Shown here in pieces: positions 36,379 to 41,744 of a stretch of DNA of 64,000 bases (position 1 is its first letter; the number at the start of each line of letters is the position of its first letter). The stretch comes from Chloroflexota bacterium (lineage in GTDB: Bacteria; Chloroflexota; Dehalococcoidia; Lucifugimonadales; Lucifugimonadaceae): the NCBI GenBank assembly GCA_013204555.1, contig JABMNO010000017.1:17579-81578 (forward strand), in the 5' to 3' direction. The translations under genes were made by a program, and so were the position numbers. The notes beneath the pieces are model-generated. The model ran no database searches, was not told the origin of the DNA, and worked only from the letters and a program-made list of their open reading frames with translations.

Positions 36379-37206
36379 CTATGCCGCAGAGATGGTGTCT
36401 TCGCACTCTCTGGGTATAGCAAATGAGACGGTAGTTCCGCGGCCGGGACTACTTTTTATCGATATGTTGCCCCCGTGGGCATGAATGATTTCTCGGGTAA
36501 CGAATAGGCCAAGTCCCAGCCCCGGGACAACTGCGCCTGAGCCATTTTCAGCCCTATAAAAATTGTCGAATACTTTCGATAATTCCTCGCTCGGTATGCC
36601 GATCCCTCTATCTACTATTTGCACATAGAATCGGGAGTCATCCACCTCAGCGGCGAGATCAATTTGAGAACTTGGGGAACTGAACTTCGATGCGTTGGTG
36701 AGCAGGTTACCCAGAGCCTGATGTATTCGAGAACGATCAGCCTGGATAACACTGCCTGGAATTGGCGATTGCACGATCAGAGTCTGGCCTGCTGATTCCA
36801 GTATCGGTCTCATAGACTTTGCCGTTTCATCGATCAGGTCAGCTGCGTCAATACTGGTCTTCACAATTGAGACATCTTTTTGCCGACCAAATGCTACGAT
36901 CTCACCAAGATCTTTGATGATCTCTGTCAGTACGCTGGCATTGCGACTGACACTTTTGAGTTGGTCCATTTCGCGAGAGCCGAGGCGATCATCACGGTTT
37001 CTCAAAAGAAGGTCACAAAATGCCACGATGGAAGTGAGCGGAGTTCTCAGCTCATGAGAGACCACCGCAAGCGACTGGCGCATTGCCGCATTTTCACGCT
37101 CCAACTCCAAGAATTGGTCAGCCAGGCGCGTGTCCGCGTCGGTTGAAACCGCAATGTGGTTTGACTCCAGAGGCACAGAACTAATCTTAGTCACTGATGG
37201 TCCCAA
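36379..37206 (-). CDS. Soluble sensor histidine kinase
   Basis: Protein of about 275 residues with no transmembrane segment and no obvious sensor domain. After about 45 residues of coiled-coil-like linker comes a HisKA dimerisation domain with the phospho-accepting His in VVSHELRTPLTSIV. The ATP-binding domain follows (NLLTNASKF as N box, DRGIGIPSEEL as G1, GLGLGLFVTREI as G2). The long start at 37206 is a TTG and a GTG three codons in is also possible. It is divergent from the comX-like gene across 274 nt, so the two share a regulatory region. It may feed into the same signalling network, which is inference. Confidence 0.85.
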   Translation of the reverse strand: MGPSVTKISSVPLESNHIAVSTDADTRLADQFLELERENAAMRQSLAVVSHELRTPLTSIVAFCDLLLRNRDDRLGSREMDQLKSVSRNASVLTEIIKDLGEIVAFGRQKDVSIVKTSIDAADLIDETAKSMRPILESAGQTLIVQSPIPGSVIQADRSRIHQALGNLLTNASKFSSPSSQIDLAAEVDDSRFYVQIVDRGIGIPSEELSKVFDNFYRAENGSGAVVPGLGLGLFVTREIIHAHGGNISIKSSPGRGTTVSFAIPRECEDTISAA

Positions 37207-37480
37207 CTGATGACCCGCCTACTTGTCACGAGCCAATCGGATACACGAAAATGAGCTTCCCGGATATCCCCGGAAGCCTGCGTCCCCGATTGAATACTTA
37301 GCGTAACTTCGGCGGTCGAGCGGGTGTACAGCAGCATACCCACCTCAATCTAGATATTTTCCTAGTAACGCGTAGGGGAATACCTAGTGACTGTCGATGT
37401 AATACGGCCCATTCTTTCGGCTTAAGGCTAGGCATTTACCTGGCTGGGACTGGTCGAATATCGACGCAGGAGGTAGGAAT
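37207..37480 (+). promoter_or_regulatory. Divergent regulatory region upstream of the comX-like gene
   Basis: No gene fits here. The region must contain promoters for the comX-like operon (+) and the soluble kinase (-). At 37375-37384 is GGGGAATACC, whose complement GGTATTCCCC differs by one base from sites upstream of comP and of the CHASE kinase. It is flanked by two CCTAGT direct repeats, at about 37361 and 37383. The AGGAGG ribosome site for the peptide gene ends about 8 nt before 37481. Whether the site is an operator or part of a -10 element cannot be decided by eye. Confidence 0.5.
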
Positions 37481-37699
37481 ATGTCCAGTATGGACACGAA
37501 CATGGTGGAAGCCATTGCACGCGAAGTTGAGAAGTCACCGCTGTCGCCCGATGTCGAGTCTTTCATCAACTCCTTTGAACTCACATCGGATGAGAAGACC
37601 GAAGTCGTCAAGATCCTGAACGACATGAAGTTCAAGGGTGATGACGTCAGTGCGCTGCCAAACACACCACCGCAGATCGTCGACGCGGGTTGGGCCTAA
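37481..37699 (+). CDS. comX: ComX-like pre-pheromone peptide
   Basis: A 72-residue acidic peptide that ends in VDAGWA, placing its only Trp second from the C-terminus. In Bacillus ComX, a 53-58-residue precursor, the C-terminal part is released as a pheromone after ComQ adds a farnesyl or geranyl group to a Trp near the end. The middle segment SFELTSDEKTEVVKILND lines up well by eye with B. subtilis ComX GFDVQETETIIKAYND. A strong AGGAGG precedes the ATG; a second ATG three codons in is possible. The stop abuts the comQ-like start with no gap. The identification rests on peptide features plus the ComQ-, ComP- and ComA-like genes that follow. It is not proven biochemically. Confidence 0.75.
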   Translation: MSSMDTNMVEAIAREVEKSPLSPDVESFINSFELTSDEKTEVVKILNDMKFKGDDVSALPNTPPQIVDAGWA

Positions 37700-38713
37700 T
37701 TGGTCGCGTTACTTGAAGTGACTGCGCCGTCTCACCGGCCTTCCAGAGCCGGTGAACGGGGTGGTCACGTCACATCTGAGATATCTCGTCAGATTTCTCT
37801 CGCGGGATTGCCAGAAGATTTGGAAAGGGTTGCGCGGTTTCAGTTCACTGGCGGGGCAATGGAGGACATGATTCCTCCGACGCTCTTTGGGGCGCTGACC
37901 GTTCACTCTTATGAGTCTGCAGGCGGGCAACACCATGAAGACGTCGCACCGGCAGCGGCGGCGGTTGAGTTCACAGCGGCAGCCGCGTCTGTGCTTGACG
38001 ATTTACAGGATCTGGATCCGATTCCTGGCATCGATCCAAATGACCCAGGGGCTGGGGCTGAATTGGTAGCTCTATTTATGGCGCTGGCGAACCAGTCAAT
38101 GTGCGGTCTGAAATCCACTGGAATGAGTTCGGGCAGCATAGAGACAGCGATGTCGATCTTGTCGCATTTTGAAGTCCGTGCTCTGGCGGGGCAGCATAGG
38201 GCGAATCAGATCGATTTAGCTGAGGCCACGGATGGGTCAATGGAATTGGCGACAGATGCCTCCCACGAAAAGTCAGGCTCTTTCGGAAGGCTAGCGGCCG
38301 AGATCGGGGCCGCATTGGCGACCAACGACGAAGCATTGATTCACGCACACGGCGAGTTCGGACATCATCTTGCAATCATCGACCAACTCCAAAACGACGT
38401 CGCAGGAGTCTGGCCGGGTGGCGAAGCCAGCACTGATATTTCGCTTGGACGGGCAACTTCCCCCCTCATGTTCGCCTTCGAAGTCCCCTCTGGAGTGAAT
38501 AAAGCCGCTGACGAGGTTAAGACTGCACTGCGGTCCAGAGATGAATCTGGCGGGCGGGATGAAGCCTGGGTCAGAGAAGCACTGTTCAAGTCTGGAGCCG
38601 TTCACTACGCGTGGGTAGTTGCCGCGGTCCACAGGGCGAAGGCAGCGTCTCTGGCCGCGAAATGCGTCCAGTCGAATCCAAACTCGCGAATCGCCGATCT
38701 GCTGGTGGCATGA
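37700..38713 (+). CDS. comQ: ComQ-like isoprenyl transferase (polyprenyl-synthase fold)
   Basis: Protein of 337 residues, all-helical in character, resembling trans-isoprenyl diphosphate synthases. The first Asp-rich motif DDLQD is at residues 100-104, inside VEFTAAAASVLDDLQDLD. The Lys-containing helix EKSGSFGRLAAEIGA is near 190-204. The second motif is QLQNDVAG near 229-236, with Asn-Asp in place of Asp-Asp, as in ComQ proteins. In Bacillus, ComQ prenylates a Trp of ComX and helps process it. The TTG start directly follows the comX-like stop; a GTG at 37718 is an alternative. About 60 N-terminal residues precede the fold. A housekeeping prenyl synthase is unlikely given degenerate motifs and context. 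Confidence 0.8.
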   Translation: MVALLEVTAPSHRPSRAGERGGHVTSEISRQISLAGLPEDLERVARFQFTGGAMEDMIPPTLFGALTVHSYESAGGQHHEDVAPAAAAVEFTAAAASVLDDLQDLDPIPGIDPNDPGAGAELVALFMALANQSMCGLKSTGMSSGSIETAMSILSHFEVRALAGQHRANQIDLAEATDGSMELATDASHEKSGSFGRLAAEIGAALATNDEALIHAHGEFGHHLAIIDQLQNDVAGVWPGGEASTDISLGRATSPLMFAFEVPSGVNKAADEVKTALRSRDESGGRDEAWVREALFKSGAVHYAWVVAAVHRAKAASLAAKCVQSNPNSRIADLLVA

Positions 38714-38731
38714 GTTAGCAGTTCCAACGTC

Positions 38732-38741
38732 GGTATACTCC
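38732..38741 (+). promoter_or_regulatory. GGTATACTCC motif upstream of the comP-like gene
   Basis: This 10-mer lies 9 nt before the comP-like start, in the 36-nt gap after comQ. It matches GGTATACCCC at 41792 in 9 of 10 positions, and the complement of the site at 37375 in 8 of 10. It may be a regulator site or a TATACT-type -10 element for an internal promoter. Confidence 0.35.
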
Positions 38742-38749
38742 GGGCATGA

Positions 38750-41089
38750 TTGATCGCCTGGAGGAATTGTGGCTCGGAATCAAGTAATCACGGGCGGCTG
38801 GGCGTCGCCTATGTCGTTTTCGCGATCCTTTCAATCGTTGACTGGAGCCAGGGAACACGCGCCGGGATTTCGGTTTCGTTCAATGTTGATAGCGGCGCAG
38901 CGACGGTAACCGAGGTCAGTGTAAGAAGCTTTGCGGCGGAATTCGGTGTGGAAGAAGGCTCTCTCCTTGAGTTGATCGATGGCATGCCGACCACCGAAGA
39001 AGTCTGGTCAAGCACCGGCGACACGTCTCAGACGATGAGATTCGTCAGCCCCACTGGCGAGGTGATCGAGGCTGAGATAGCAAAAGCCCGTGCCATCGAC
39101 CTTGGCGGCGTAGTGGCGCTGGAATTTTCGGGCGTAATTTTTGCTCTGTCGAGCCTCTTCGTGATCTCGAGAGCCTGGAGATCAATCGAAGCCAATAGAT
39201 TCGCCTACTTCGCGGTCATCACTTCCATCGCTTTCGCATCTCTTCCGGGATCTGAATCTGGACACCTATTCTCCCGCGCAGTGTTCACAACCACATTGCC
39301 GTGGATTCCGGTGGCCTTTATCGGTCTGTTCGATGTGCTTGGCAAGGACAAAAATAGAAGGGAGCAGATGGTCCCATCTATCGGCCTCATCTTGCCATTG
39401 GTAGGTGCGATCGGGCTGACGACAGTCAATCTAGTCCGATTCACAGCTGCTCCAGCGCTGGCCGACATTGCCGCATCCGCGTCCCTTCTGTTTCTTGCAA
39501 CGGGACTCTTCTGGGGACTTTTTTTACTGGCAAGACGCTATTTCAATTCGACGTCCGCCATATTTAGAGAGCAGATTCGCGTCATTGCGGTTGGCACGAT
39601 GATTGCCGTTCTACCTGTTGTTCTCCTTAACATCGTCCCAAACGGGCTCAATATTGATCCCCTGGTGCCGCCCGAATTCCTTCTTACGGCCAGTGTGATT
39701 ATCCCTCTTTCATTCGGGTACGCCATCCTCCGCCACGATCTACTTGGTATACGGCGCCTGGTTCACAGAGGGGTCGCATACGTCCTCATTTCAGCCATCG
39801 TAGTGGCCCTGTACGCGGTTGTGTTGGGTGCGACGAGAGCATGGATAAATCAAGGAGTTGGTGACGATACAGCGGTGAACATCGCGATCCTGATGGCGCT
39901 TCTGGGGATTCCGCTGATTCCTCGCGTGCGAGAACTTTCTTTCTCCGTCGTCGATCGTCTGTTGTACAAAGATTTCATCGGCCACAGAGAGGTGGTTAGG
40001 GGAGTGAGCCTTCGCGCCGTGGAGGCGCCATCTGTTGAAGAACTTTTTGATGGAGTCCTTGGCCAGATAAGGGACCCCCTGGGTGCGTCGTTCGTGGCTT
40101 ACATTGAGCGCGAAGGAATTACCGGTAGCGTTGGCGCAGTAGAGGATCCAATTATCGAAGCAGCGTACCGGAGAGCGGTTCAAGCGAACGGCACCGAATC
40201 TGGCACACATGTGGTTATCAATGCTGCTTTAGAAGGGCAGGTCGCGTTCGTTATGTTCCCTGATAGCGGTGACAGGTCAGCCACAATCTGCGTGGGTCCC
40301 AAAGAGACCGGTGAGCCGTTCAGCGATGAAGATCTTCAGATGATCCAGACGATAGGCGGTTTGCTGTCGACAGCGGTCGCCAGGCTTCGGCTGTTAGAGC
40401 AGTTACAGGTTAAGAACGAAGAGTTGACCGGTCTCAACCGGAGAATTGTCCAGGTTGAAGAGCAGGAACGAGCAAGGATTTCTGGATATTTGCACGATGA
40501 GCCTCTTCAGAAGGTCTCCTACGCGCTAGCGCAGTACCGAGAGCGCAACCTTGGCGCTGATCTTGAGGCAATTCTGGACGACGCTGTGGGTGATCTACGG
40601 AACATCACGGCGACCCTCAGTCCAGCCATCTTGATGGATCTTGGCCTGGCGAGATCTGTCGAGTGGCTCGTGGCGGAAACGGACCAGCGATCAGACTTCA
40701 GTACTGATCTTCGAATAGAAGGAGATGAACGCGAGTCTCAACTCTCAAAATCGACACAGCTGGTCGCCTACAGAGTTGTCCAAGAGTCGCTTACGAACTG
40801 CCAGAAACATGCAAAACCATCAATGGTGTGGGTGTCCCTGGAATATGAAAACGAAGGACTGCTGATATCAGTTGATGACAACGGTGTTGGAGCTCCAGAA
40901 GGACCAGATGGCCTCACGAGCAAAGCTGATAGCCTTGGTTTGCTCAGCATGCGGCAGAGAGTGGAAAGCCAGAACGGTTTTTTGGCGGTCCAAAATCGCG
41001 AGTCCAGAGGGTTTAGTGTTAGAGCAAGACTCCCGTTCGGTGACGAGATCCCCGGACCAACACAAAAAAGCAACGGATCAGCGCCCTAA
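38750..41089 (+). CDS. comP: ComP-like polytopic sensor histidine kinase with PDZ-like loop
   Basis: Membrane kinase of 779 residues with the plan of Bacillus ComP. One N-terminal helix (about 17-33) leads to an outside loop of about 80 residues resembling a PDZ domain (AAEFGVEEGSLLELIDG). Eight or so helices follow to about residue 385, including FGYAILRHDLLGIRRLVHRG, then a GAF-like region. The HisKA_3 domain carries the phosphorylated His at residue 582 in ARISGYLHDEPLQ. The HATPase domain follows (VVQESLTNCQKHA, VDDNGVGAP, SLGLLSMRQRV). It presumably senses the modified peptide. The TTG start follows a stop and lacks a good ribosome site. GGAGG at 38760-38764 serves a GTG in another frame, so the start is uncertain. 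Confidence 0.85.
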   Translation: MIAWRNCGSESSNHGRLGVAYVVFAILSIVDWSQGTRAGISVSFNVDSGAATVTEVSVRSFAAEFGVEEGSLLELIDGMPTTEEVWSSTGDTSQTMRFVSPTGEVIEAEIAKARAIDLGGVVALEFSGVIFALSSLFVISRAWRSIEANRFAYFAVITSIAFASLPGSESGHLFSRAVFTTTLPWIPVAFIGLFDVLGKDKNRREQMVPSIGLILPLVGAIGLTTVNLVRFTAAPALADIAASASLLFLATGLFWGLFLLARRYFNSTSAIFREQIRVIAVGTMIAVLPVVLLNIVPNGLNIDPLVPPEFLLTASVIIPLSFGYAILRHDLLGIRRLVHRGVAYVLISAIVVALYAVVLGATRAWINQGVGDDTAVNIAILMALLGIPLIPRVRELSFSVVDRLLYKDFIGHREVVRGVSLRAVEAPSVEELFDGVLGQIRDPLGASFVAYIEREGITGSVGAVEDPIIEAAYRRAVQANGTESGTHVVINAALEGQVAFVMFPDSGDRSATICVGPKETGEPFSDEDLQMIQTIGGLLSTAVARLRLLEQLQVKNEELTGLNRRIVQVEEQERARISGYLHDEPLQKVSYALAQYRERNLGADLEAILDDAVGDLRNITATLSPAILMDLGLARSVEWLVAETDQRSDFSTDLRIEGDERESQLSKSTQLVAYRVVQESLTNCQKHAKPSMVWVSLEYENEGLLISVDDNGVGAPEGPDGLTSKADSLGLLSMRQRVESQNGFLAVQNRESRGFSVRARLPFGDEIPGPTQKSNGSAP

Positions 41090-41744
41090 CCGGGTGTTAG
41101 TGGTTGACGACCACCCAATGCTCCGGGTTGGTGTTGTTTCATTTTTGACCGAGGCGTCAGATTGCGACGTAGTTGGCGAATCCGACAACGCGGACGACGC
41201 ACTTCAACTTGCCCGGGTCATGAAACCTGACATTGTTCTATTAGATATCAGATTAAAGGGCAGTCGCACCGGCATTGATCTGGCTCGGGATCTTCGAGAG
41301 CAAGTTCCTGACGCCAAAATTGTTGTGCTTACCAATTTCCCGCATGAGCCCTACGTCCGCGCGATGATGGAACTGGGCGTGGACGGGTATTTGTTGAAAG
41401 ATACTCCGCCAAGTGATGTGCTTGAGGGCCTGCGGATGGTGATGCGCGGCAGCAGCGTCTTCTCTTCCACGGTCAGTTCAAACATCATCAAGGGATATCT
41501 CCACTCCCCCTATAACAGGGCTCGAAGAAGCCGGGATTCGCTTACGGCAAGAGAAGCGGAAGTGCTGCAACTGATAGCGGATGGCCGAACCAATGATGAC
41601 GTTGCTGATGCGCTTGGTGTATCCGTAAAGGCGATCCAGGTTCATCTCACCAATCTGTACTCCAAACTGGATGCGAAAAACAGGACCGAAGCCGTCGTAA
41701 AAGCGGCGAGACGGGGACTCGTCATTCTGGACGAGGCCCAGTAG
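41040..41744 (+). CDS. comA: ComA-like NarL/LuxR-family response regulator
   Basis: Response regulator of about 234 residues. The receiver domain shows RVLVVDDHPML, the phospho-accepting Asp in PDIVLLDIRL, the Thr in VVLTNFP and the Lys in YLLKDTPP. The C-terminal LuxR helix-turn-helix is LTAREAEVLQLIADGRTNDD through AIQVHLTNLYSKL. I chose the GTG at 41040, which overlaps the end of the comP-like gene by 50 nt. The frame stays open further upstream but that is shadow of comP. HisKA_3 kinases pair with this regulator class, so it is the likely partner of the kinase. In Bacillus, ComA activates competence and surfactin genes; the targets here are unknown. Confidence 0.88.
   Translation: MTRSPDQHKKATDQRPNRVLVVDDHPMLRVGVVSFLTEASDCDVVGESDNADDALQLARVMKPDIVLLDIRLKGSRTGIDLARDLREQVPDAKIVVLTNFPHEPYVRAMMELGVDGYLLKDTPPSDVLEGLRMVMRGSSVFSSTVSSNIIKGYLHSPYNRARRSRDSLTAREAEVLQLIADGRTNDDVADALGVSVKAIQVHLTNLYSKLDAKNRTEAVVKAARRGLVILDEAQ

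Follow-up and report, generated by a model that had tools for sequence, protein, structure and literature searches.

The locus treated here raises the question of whether a bacterium outside Bacillota makes and senses a tryptophan-prenylated peptide in the manner of the ComQXPA system of Bacillus. It consists of four genes, here called X, Q, P and A, which lie together on the plus strand at positions 37481-41744 of a stretch of 64,000 nucleotides (nt) from contig JABMNO010000017.1 of a Chloroflexota bacterium (assembly GCA_013204555.1); the whole stretch is referred to as the window. A reading made from the letters alone (below, the sequence-only reading) had proposed a ComQXPA-like system and had held that such systems were described only in Bacillota. 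The latter statement agrees with the available excerpts of the census by Dogsa et al., in which comQXPA-like loci were found in Firmicutes only among 2620 complete and 6970 draft genomes up to 2013 (PMC4008528).

Sequence comparison established the four genes, the conserved tryptophan (Trp) of X, the altered motif of Q, the ComP-like front half of P and the recurrence of the arrangement across the phylum. It is considered likely that X-Q-P-A both produces a peptide signal and senses it, Q being predicted to prenylate the penultimate Trp of X. The cluster is best read as belonging to a third lineage of prenyl-Trp peptide signalling, that of Chloroflexota, which would be ComQXPA-like in its working and PalX-like in its precursor.

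Recurrence of the cluster in Chloroflexota

Relatives of Q were sought with a profile (alignment A1, 12 rows) in overlapping sets of genomes: 250 from the order, 393 from the class and 400 from the phylum. Within the order, seven genomes including the window's own matched at 2e-57 or better, followed by G099 and G097 near 4e-35. Weaker matches were mostly ordinary synthases, yet one of them, G095 (locus L060) at 3e-26, turned out to be a member, so that the counts of Q loci are lower bounds. At 1e-32, matches were obtained in 11 genomes of the class and eight of the phylum, the window's own included in both; one of those in the class (G258, locus L091) encodes an ordinary synthase, has neither X nor P beside it and was moved to the controls. 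Besides the window, X-Q pairs were found at no fewer than 21 Chloroflexota loci: four in the same family (L031 and L034 among them), five more in the order, nine more in the class and three in other classes. Loci read twice from the same contig (L033 with L031, L068 with L034) were counted once; L066 is cut by a contig end, with P off the contig, and only part of the P of L060 was read.

The order X-Q-P-A recurs in L031, L065 and L034, and a large P-type gene stands directly 3' of Q at 19 of the 22 loci, the arrangement being changed at L032 and L067. In the window, as at the other loci that were read, X lies 5' of Q, and the order Q-X-P-A was not encountered there. The neighbours on either side of the cluster are also the same in L031 as in the window, namely the major facilitator superfamily (MFS) and aminotransferase genes on the one and the CHASE kinase and OmpR-type regulator genes on the other. 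The adjacency of four genes, as first proposed, was found, all on one strand, and the recurrence of X-Q at 21 other loci is beyond chance; judged by sequence, related clusters are also carried by distantly related Chloroflexota.

The precursor X and the enzyme Q

Gene X (37481-37699) starts with an ATG, 7 nt 5' of which lies an AGGAGG ribosome-binding site (37468-37473), and encodes 72 residues ending in DAGWA, with a predicted NHLP-type leader and a short core. The description of X as a small peptide with Trp next to its last residue (GWA) was confirmed; this residue, W71 (TGG codon at 37691-37693), is the predicted prenylation site. A Trp at or near the C-terminus was found at 21 of the 22 loci. 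In A4, an alignment of 21 X without that of L060, no column but that of the Trp is conserved at 90% or more (20/21). Regarding its distance from the end, the Trp is followed by at most two residues at 17 of the 22 loci, by four at one (L070, VWTVAE) and by 10-11 at three (L094, L095 and L096); among the aligned X only that of L088 ends in Trp. The ends read GWA (window), GWL (L031), GWWA (L065), QWWA (L066), GFWK (L067), GWHG (L034), PEWT (L084), SNWL (L085), WWWS (L086), GTWS (L087), GGW (L088), LYWL (L089), LFWL (L090), AGWF (L092), AGWL (L093), SEWF (L069) and LPWV (L060).

As the starts and some of the frames of X in A4 had been chosen by eye with the Trp in view, a rule blind to Trp served as a check. 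When the longest small upstream open reading frame (ORF) was taken, a Trp stood among its final five residues at 14 of the 21 Q loci, against five of 46 non-member synthase loci (Fisher 7e-6); with any small upstream ORF, the counts were 16 of 21 and seven of 46 (Fisher 2e-6). The 46 controls remain from 49 rows after removal of two duplicates and of L060, a member; the count for the longest ORF before cleaning was 5/49. The rule missed L065, whose ORF becomes too long when read from the first start codon, and picked a different frame in L031 and L093. Two of three pairs show X to be under purifying selection: non-synonymous (dN) and synonymous (dS) divergence amounted to 0.158 and 0.604 for L089/L090 (dN/dS about 0.26) and to 0.092 and 1.26 for L092/L093 (about 0.07), whereas dS was saturated for L085/L087. 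Nine of the 21 X match NH_RiPP_Os17 of NCBIfam (NF038399; best 1.2e-11) and four match leader_NHLP (TIGR03793) at E 0.1 or better; the window's own X is in neither set.

In a protein search, window-type X were also found elsewhere, 69-86% identical over the whole peptide, and four X of that search (P0015, P0023, P0024 and P0026) carry the source label Chloroflexi or Chloroflexota. The leader of window-type X is conserved and the last residues vary around the Trp (DAGWA in the window; SRGWK, SGHWR, AGHWR and SWGWK in the relatives), as would be expected of signal specificity types. In one further window-type X, the metagenomic P0021, the core runs into sequence like that at window 45203 (break at about window 37670), as if the whole Q-P-A stretch had been deleted in that strain or the contig misassembled; P0021 was excluded from alignment A8.

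Gene Q (37700-38713) starts with a TTG directly after the TAA of X, as the sequence-only reading had stated, and its beginning, MV[AS]L, is common to the relatives P0002-P0004. It matches Pfam polyprenyl_synt (PF00348) at 1.1e-8, and its AlphaFold model (pLDDT, the predicted local distance difference test, 82) has the trans-prenyl-synthase fold. Both motifs named at the outset were recovered. The first, DDLQD (37997-38011), which in this enzyme family binds the prenyl diphosphate, has its first and last Asp in 21 of 21 Q and its second in 19. The second, QLQNDVAG (38384-38407), retains the Gln and has Asn in place of the first Asp, so that the window's Q departs from ordinary synthases, in which both Asp-rich motifs are intact, and resembles ComQ in combining an intact first with an altered second motif. 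QxxND was present in 19 of 21 Q (exceptions L032 and L069), and in three of four Bacillota ComQ, the fourth having QISGD. Of the control synthases, 43 of the 49 rows (40 of the 46 left by cleaning) have QxxDD, and the remaining six lack Qxx[NG]D. According to the accessible parts of PMC13290415, the second motif of peptide Trp prenyltransferases serves Trp recognition, the preceding Gln lying near the indole NH. That Gln, retained in 20 of 21 Q (not in L070), is also found in ordinary synthases, and it is therefore the Asn that sets Q apart. The other synthase of the genome (C81) is ordinary, with DDIQD and QIRDD, so that Q would not be needed for housekeeping.

The structural check proposed earlier gave a resemblance to trans-prenyl synthases and to Ord1, with the second Asp motif of Q broken. 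Ord1, a Trp prenyltransferase (PDB 9v4g-9v4j), was the Foldseek match of Q at rank 7 with a template-modelling (TM) score of 0.68, the Gln before the second motif being aligned to Gln; it differs from Q in that the aligned stretch reads QIRDD and in that, by the portions of PMC13290415 available, it farnesylates free tryptophan. The best NCBIfam match of Q was the cargo polyprenyl transferase of Family 2 encapsulins (NF041169, 2.5e-14); its score of 53 bits compares with a cut-off of 450, and no encapsulin gene was present among the scanned neighbours.

L032 (7424-8672), one of the 21 loci, retains X and Q, its X having no Trp and its Q having DD rather than ND in the second motif, with a kinase 2 kb away. 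A plasmid of Acaryochloris marina (L102, 4833-5780) carries a ComQ-like prenyl synthase with a very long branch in the tree. L100 (CP031730.1), labelled as a Stenotrophomonas plasmid, has the same ComQ-ComX neighbourhood as the Lysinibacillus plasmid L101 (NZ_CP130332.1), and its label may be wrong.

The sensor P, the regulator A and their surroundings

Gene P (38750-41089) starts with a TTG 37 nt 3' of Q and encodes a predicted pheromone receptor composed of a PDZ-like outer domain, membrane helices, a GAF-like region and a histidine kinase. Pfam called HATPase_c (3e-10) in the window's P; the PDZ and HisKA_3 assignments of the sequence-only reading were not reproduced by Pfam on this protein. 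The PDZ-like region (residues about 37-112, 38858-39085) is supported by its relatives and by the model: the P of L034, aligned with it in A7, matches PDZ_6 at 1.5e-9, and the model has five strands at residues 40-109, where the PDZ matches of the relatives align, followed by helices through 118-406. A fold search of P gave no PDZ domain among the 50 matches listed, which were kinases, kinase domains and phytochromes. Among 20 P scanned with Pfam, HATPase_c was found in 18 and PDZ at E 0.1 or better in 12; a weak PDZ match was also seen in two of three scanned Bacillota ComP. The predicted phospho-acceptor His lies in LHDEPLQK (codon 40493-40495), and H582, D583, P585, L586 and Q587 are invariant in the eight P of A7.

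The front half of the window's P (first 440 residues, without the kinase) matched 18 of 19 other P (not that of L094) and one of two ComP, and the front half of the L088 protein matched both ComP; these BLAST comparisons were run in a set of 22 sequences, and their E-values are small-set values. Profiles of whole P and ComP aligned over 714 columns (column 23 to 769) with E 6.9e-48.

Gene A (41040-41744) encodes a receiver (Response_reg, 1.8e-22) and a LuxR-type DNA-binding domain (GerE, 9.1e-19), and its counterpart in L031 is likewise a receiver with GerE. Its start is ambiguous: the GTG at 41040 gives an overlap with P, as had been claimed, of 50 nt, whereas the GTG at 41094 gives none. The counterpart in L031 starts with an ATG within P, and A probably begins at GTG 41040, inside P. 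A ComP-like polytopic kinase and a ComA-like LuxR regulator on one strand are thus present in the window, though not at every relative. The output of the window type comprises a HisKA_3-like kinase and a separate A; the P of L084, L085 and L087 carry a HisKA kinase. At L086 (7505-9748, plus strand) and L088 (3964-6369, minus strand), the receptor with PDZ, membrane and GAF parts encoded 3' of X-Q carries an HD-GYP-type domain, by which the peptide would act on cyclic-di-GMP.

By Pfam of the neighbours, the cluster is flanked directly by two histidine kinases and not by an exporter or protease. The one directly upstream of X (36379-37206, minus strand, 275 residues, HisKA) is missing from L031, where a short gap without a counterpart separates the aminotransferase gene from X. 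On the opposite strand, 2.6 kb upstream of the cluster, there is a gene for an MFS transporter. Palindromes like GGGTATACCC were seen at 37375 (5' of X), 38731 (5' of P) and 41791 (3' of A, a perfect copy). As a shared operator they were rejected, because they do not stand at matching places in six relatives; they are possibly promoter elements.

Comparison with known systems and rival readings

The cluster resembles ComQXPA in having a Trp near the C-terminus of the precursor, a Q with DDxxD kept and QxxND or QxxGD, a sensor with a common front half and a kinase, a LuxR-type regulator, and adjacent genes on one strand. It differs in gene order (X-Q-P-A here, Q-X-P-A in Bacillus), in a precursor for which neither Pfam nor profile comparison shows homology to ComX, in the phylum and in being known here from genes. 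With PalX/PalQ/PalP of Paenibacillus alvei, as far as excerpts of PMC10853753 describe them, it shares a predicted NHLP-type leader, a Trp at the C-terminal end, a Q of the prenyl-synthase superfamily and a neighbouring histidine kinase. PalX ends in Trp, whereas here one or two residues usually follow (the window's X ends in WA); the LuxR-type regulator and the ComP-like front half complete the set here, PalQ having been compared by description. Among the matches listed from the open-licence literature, no ComX-like, PalX-like or prenyl-peptide system in Chloroflexota was found. A study of 2022 notes in its available part that chloroflexi contain a kinase-regulator pair, and that pair only (PMC8895600); two further papers each hold a single mention of quorum (PMC7506110; PMC7289593, there on antibiotics). 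What appears new is accordingly a full ComQXPA-like set in Chloroflexota, similar to ComQXPA in its predicted working and outside the ComX family. Since X lies 5' of Q and belongs to another precursor family, the cluster is classed as a variant of ComQXPA and not as ComQXPA proper.

A number of observations weigh against the reading as a signalling system of this kind. The sequence-only reading had aligned the middle of X with B. subtilis ComX; homology to ComX was rejected, the profile of 21 X against four annotated ComX giving a probability of 0.1% and E 0.51. Pfam ComX (PF05952) was not among the families listed for the 21 X (25 of 26), and the same model matches two Bacillota ComX. Over the whole genome it gave just a chance-level match elsewhere (E 0.78), which is weak evidence, because even in the control genome, that of B. 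subtilis, the model stays below its cut-off. The lack of profile likeness to ComX and the NHLP matches of the family together place X, by prediction, with NHLP-type precursors, as PalX. The proposal of a ComQXPA-like prenyl-Trp system outside Bacillota is thus upheld by synteny, Trp and the structure of Q, and not by kinship of X with ComX.

The conservation of X adds to these points. Identities of X and Q in the three pairs were 74/67, 86/53 and 63/57%, so that X was more conserved than Q in all three, whereas ComX is the most variable of the Com proteins according to excerpts of PMC4008528. The Trp, kept at 21 of 22 loci, is missing from the 77-residue X of L032; this protein (P0022), P0025 and P0027 form a sister group with a conserved, Trp-less X, and P0019, close to the window's X, ends in SFDA without Trp. 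In L069 and L060, X has its Trp, yet Q has DD. The top matches of Q in the PDB were ordinary prenyl synthases, so that the fold alone is not decisive; as Q resembles these and Ord1 alike, it was dropped as a decider. PalQ is reported, in the part of PMC10853753 at hand, to need Trp at the very C-terminus and to fail with added Ala residues, and Q must therefore differ from PalQ in this respect. Concerning the output, A or another regulator stands beside P at about ten of the 22 loci (by eye). The P of L089, L090, L092 and L093 (about 1070-1100 residues) combine PAS, a HisKA kinase and a fused receiver, with no separate A seen beside them, and those of L086 and L088 have HD_5 (3e-43 and 7e-43) instead of a kinase, with the HD-GYP residues HHExx[DN]GxGYP intact. 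The output would thus not always run from P to A.

The rival that survives best, although it is considerably less probable than the signalling reading, holds that X-Q makes a prenylated ribosomally synthesized and post-translationally modified peptide (RiPP) with a main role other than signalling, such as an antibacterial or membrane-acting lipopeptide, P-A regulating the cluster under envelope stress. PalX, PalQ and PalP are the same three types of part, and the available excerpts of PMC10853753 hold no signalling test; the leaders of X are of the NHLP RiPP type, the kinase part of P resembles the stress sensors LiaS and VraS, and the MFS transporter gene lies upstream. Against this, the direct neighbours of the cluster are kinases rather than an exporter or protease, the cores of window-type X vary around a fixed Trp in a signal-like manner, and the output of P shifts from kinase to HD-GYP in relatives that retain its front half, which fits a receptor for the product of X-Q.

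Much less credit is given to the view that Q is simply an isoprenoid synthase, whether ordinary or diverged, and that the small gene X is unrelated or due to chance. The Pfam match of Q and most of the listed Foldseek matches are indeed ordinary prenyl synthases; however, ND replaces DD in nearly all Q and in none of the control rows, the genome has its separate ordinary synthase, and a Trp-bearing X accompanies Q at all loci but one. In a tree of 50 rows, including 20 of the 47 distinct control proteins and four of the 12 protein relatives, 19 ordinary synthases formed one side of a branch supported at 100/98, and Q, ComQ and L060 grouped together (89/86). The four ComQ fell inside the Chloroflexota Q, beside the L085-L093 group (87/78). 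Placing ComQ by the tree was dropped, as approximately unbiased (AU) tests left other positions: neither Q apart from ComQ (p 0.17) nor ComQ with the synthases (p 0.27) was rejected, these sequences being compatible with separate as well as with common descent of Q and ComQ. A true ComQXPA locus recently transferred from Bacillota, for which the position of ComQ in the tree might speak, is very improbable, as other positions of ComQ were not rejected, X is unrelated to ComX by profile and stands before Q, and the window's Q lies among other Chloroflexota Q, with neighbours kept in L031.

Under the favoured reading of X-Q-P-A as a prenyl-Trp signalling system, the chemical and signalling steps are inferred from ComX and PalX. 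X would be translated and guided by its leader to Q, which would use a prenyl diphosphate (C10-C20) supplied by the genome's other, ordinary synthase. The DDLQD motif would hold this diphosphate and the indole would be positioned by the Gln of QLQND; the prenyl group would thereby end on the Trp of X, probably ring-closed as in ComX and PalX. The C-terminal piece of X would be cleaved and would leave the cell via other enzymes. The PDZ-like outer domain and the membrane part of P would bind the prenylated peptide, upon which P would phosphorylate A and A would switch its target genes.

A wider form of the reading is offered tentatively and is judged rather less probable than its opposite: prenyl-Trp pheromones with NHLP-type precursors may be an old, phylum-wide family, its receptor front end being mounted on kinases, hybrid kinases or HD-GYP domains, with ComQXPA of Bacillus having arisen beside or from it and cultivated Dehalogenimonas using it. 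In that case, the signal would set cyclic-di-GMP directly in some lineages, and a lipid-peptide language of organohalide-respiring bacteria would be testable now.

If the signalling reading is true, Trp-prenylated peptide signalling would not be confined to Firmicutes but would extend across Chloroflexota, probably including cultivated organohalide respirers. The family would be a source of Trp prenyltransferases able to act on a Trp that lies one or two residues before the C-terminus, and of a natural set of Q, with ND or DD, showing how a synthase became a peptide modifier. It would form a bridge between ComX and PalX, with one receptor front end wired, according to lineage, to a phospho-relay or to a domain of the cyclic-di-GMP type.

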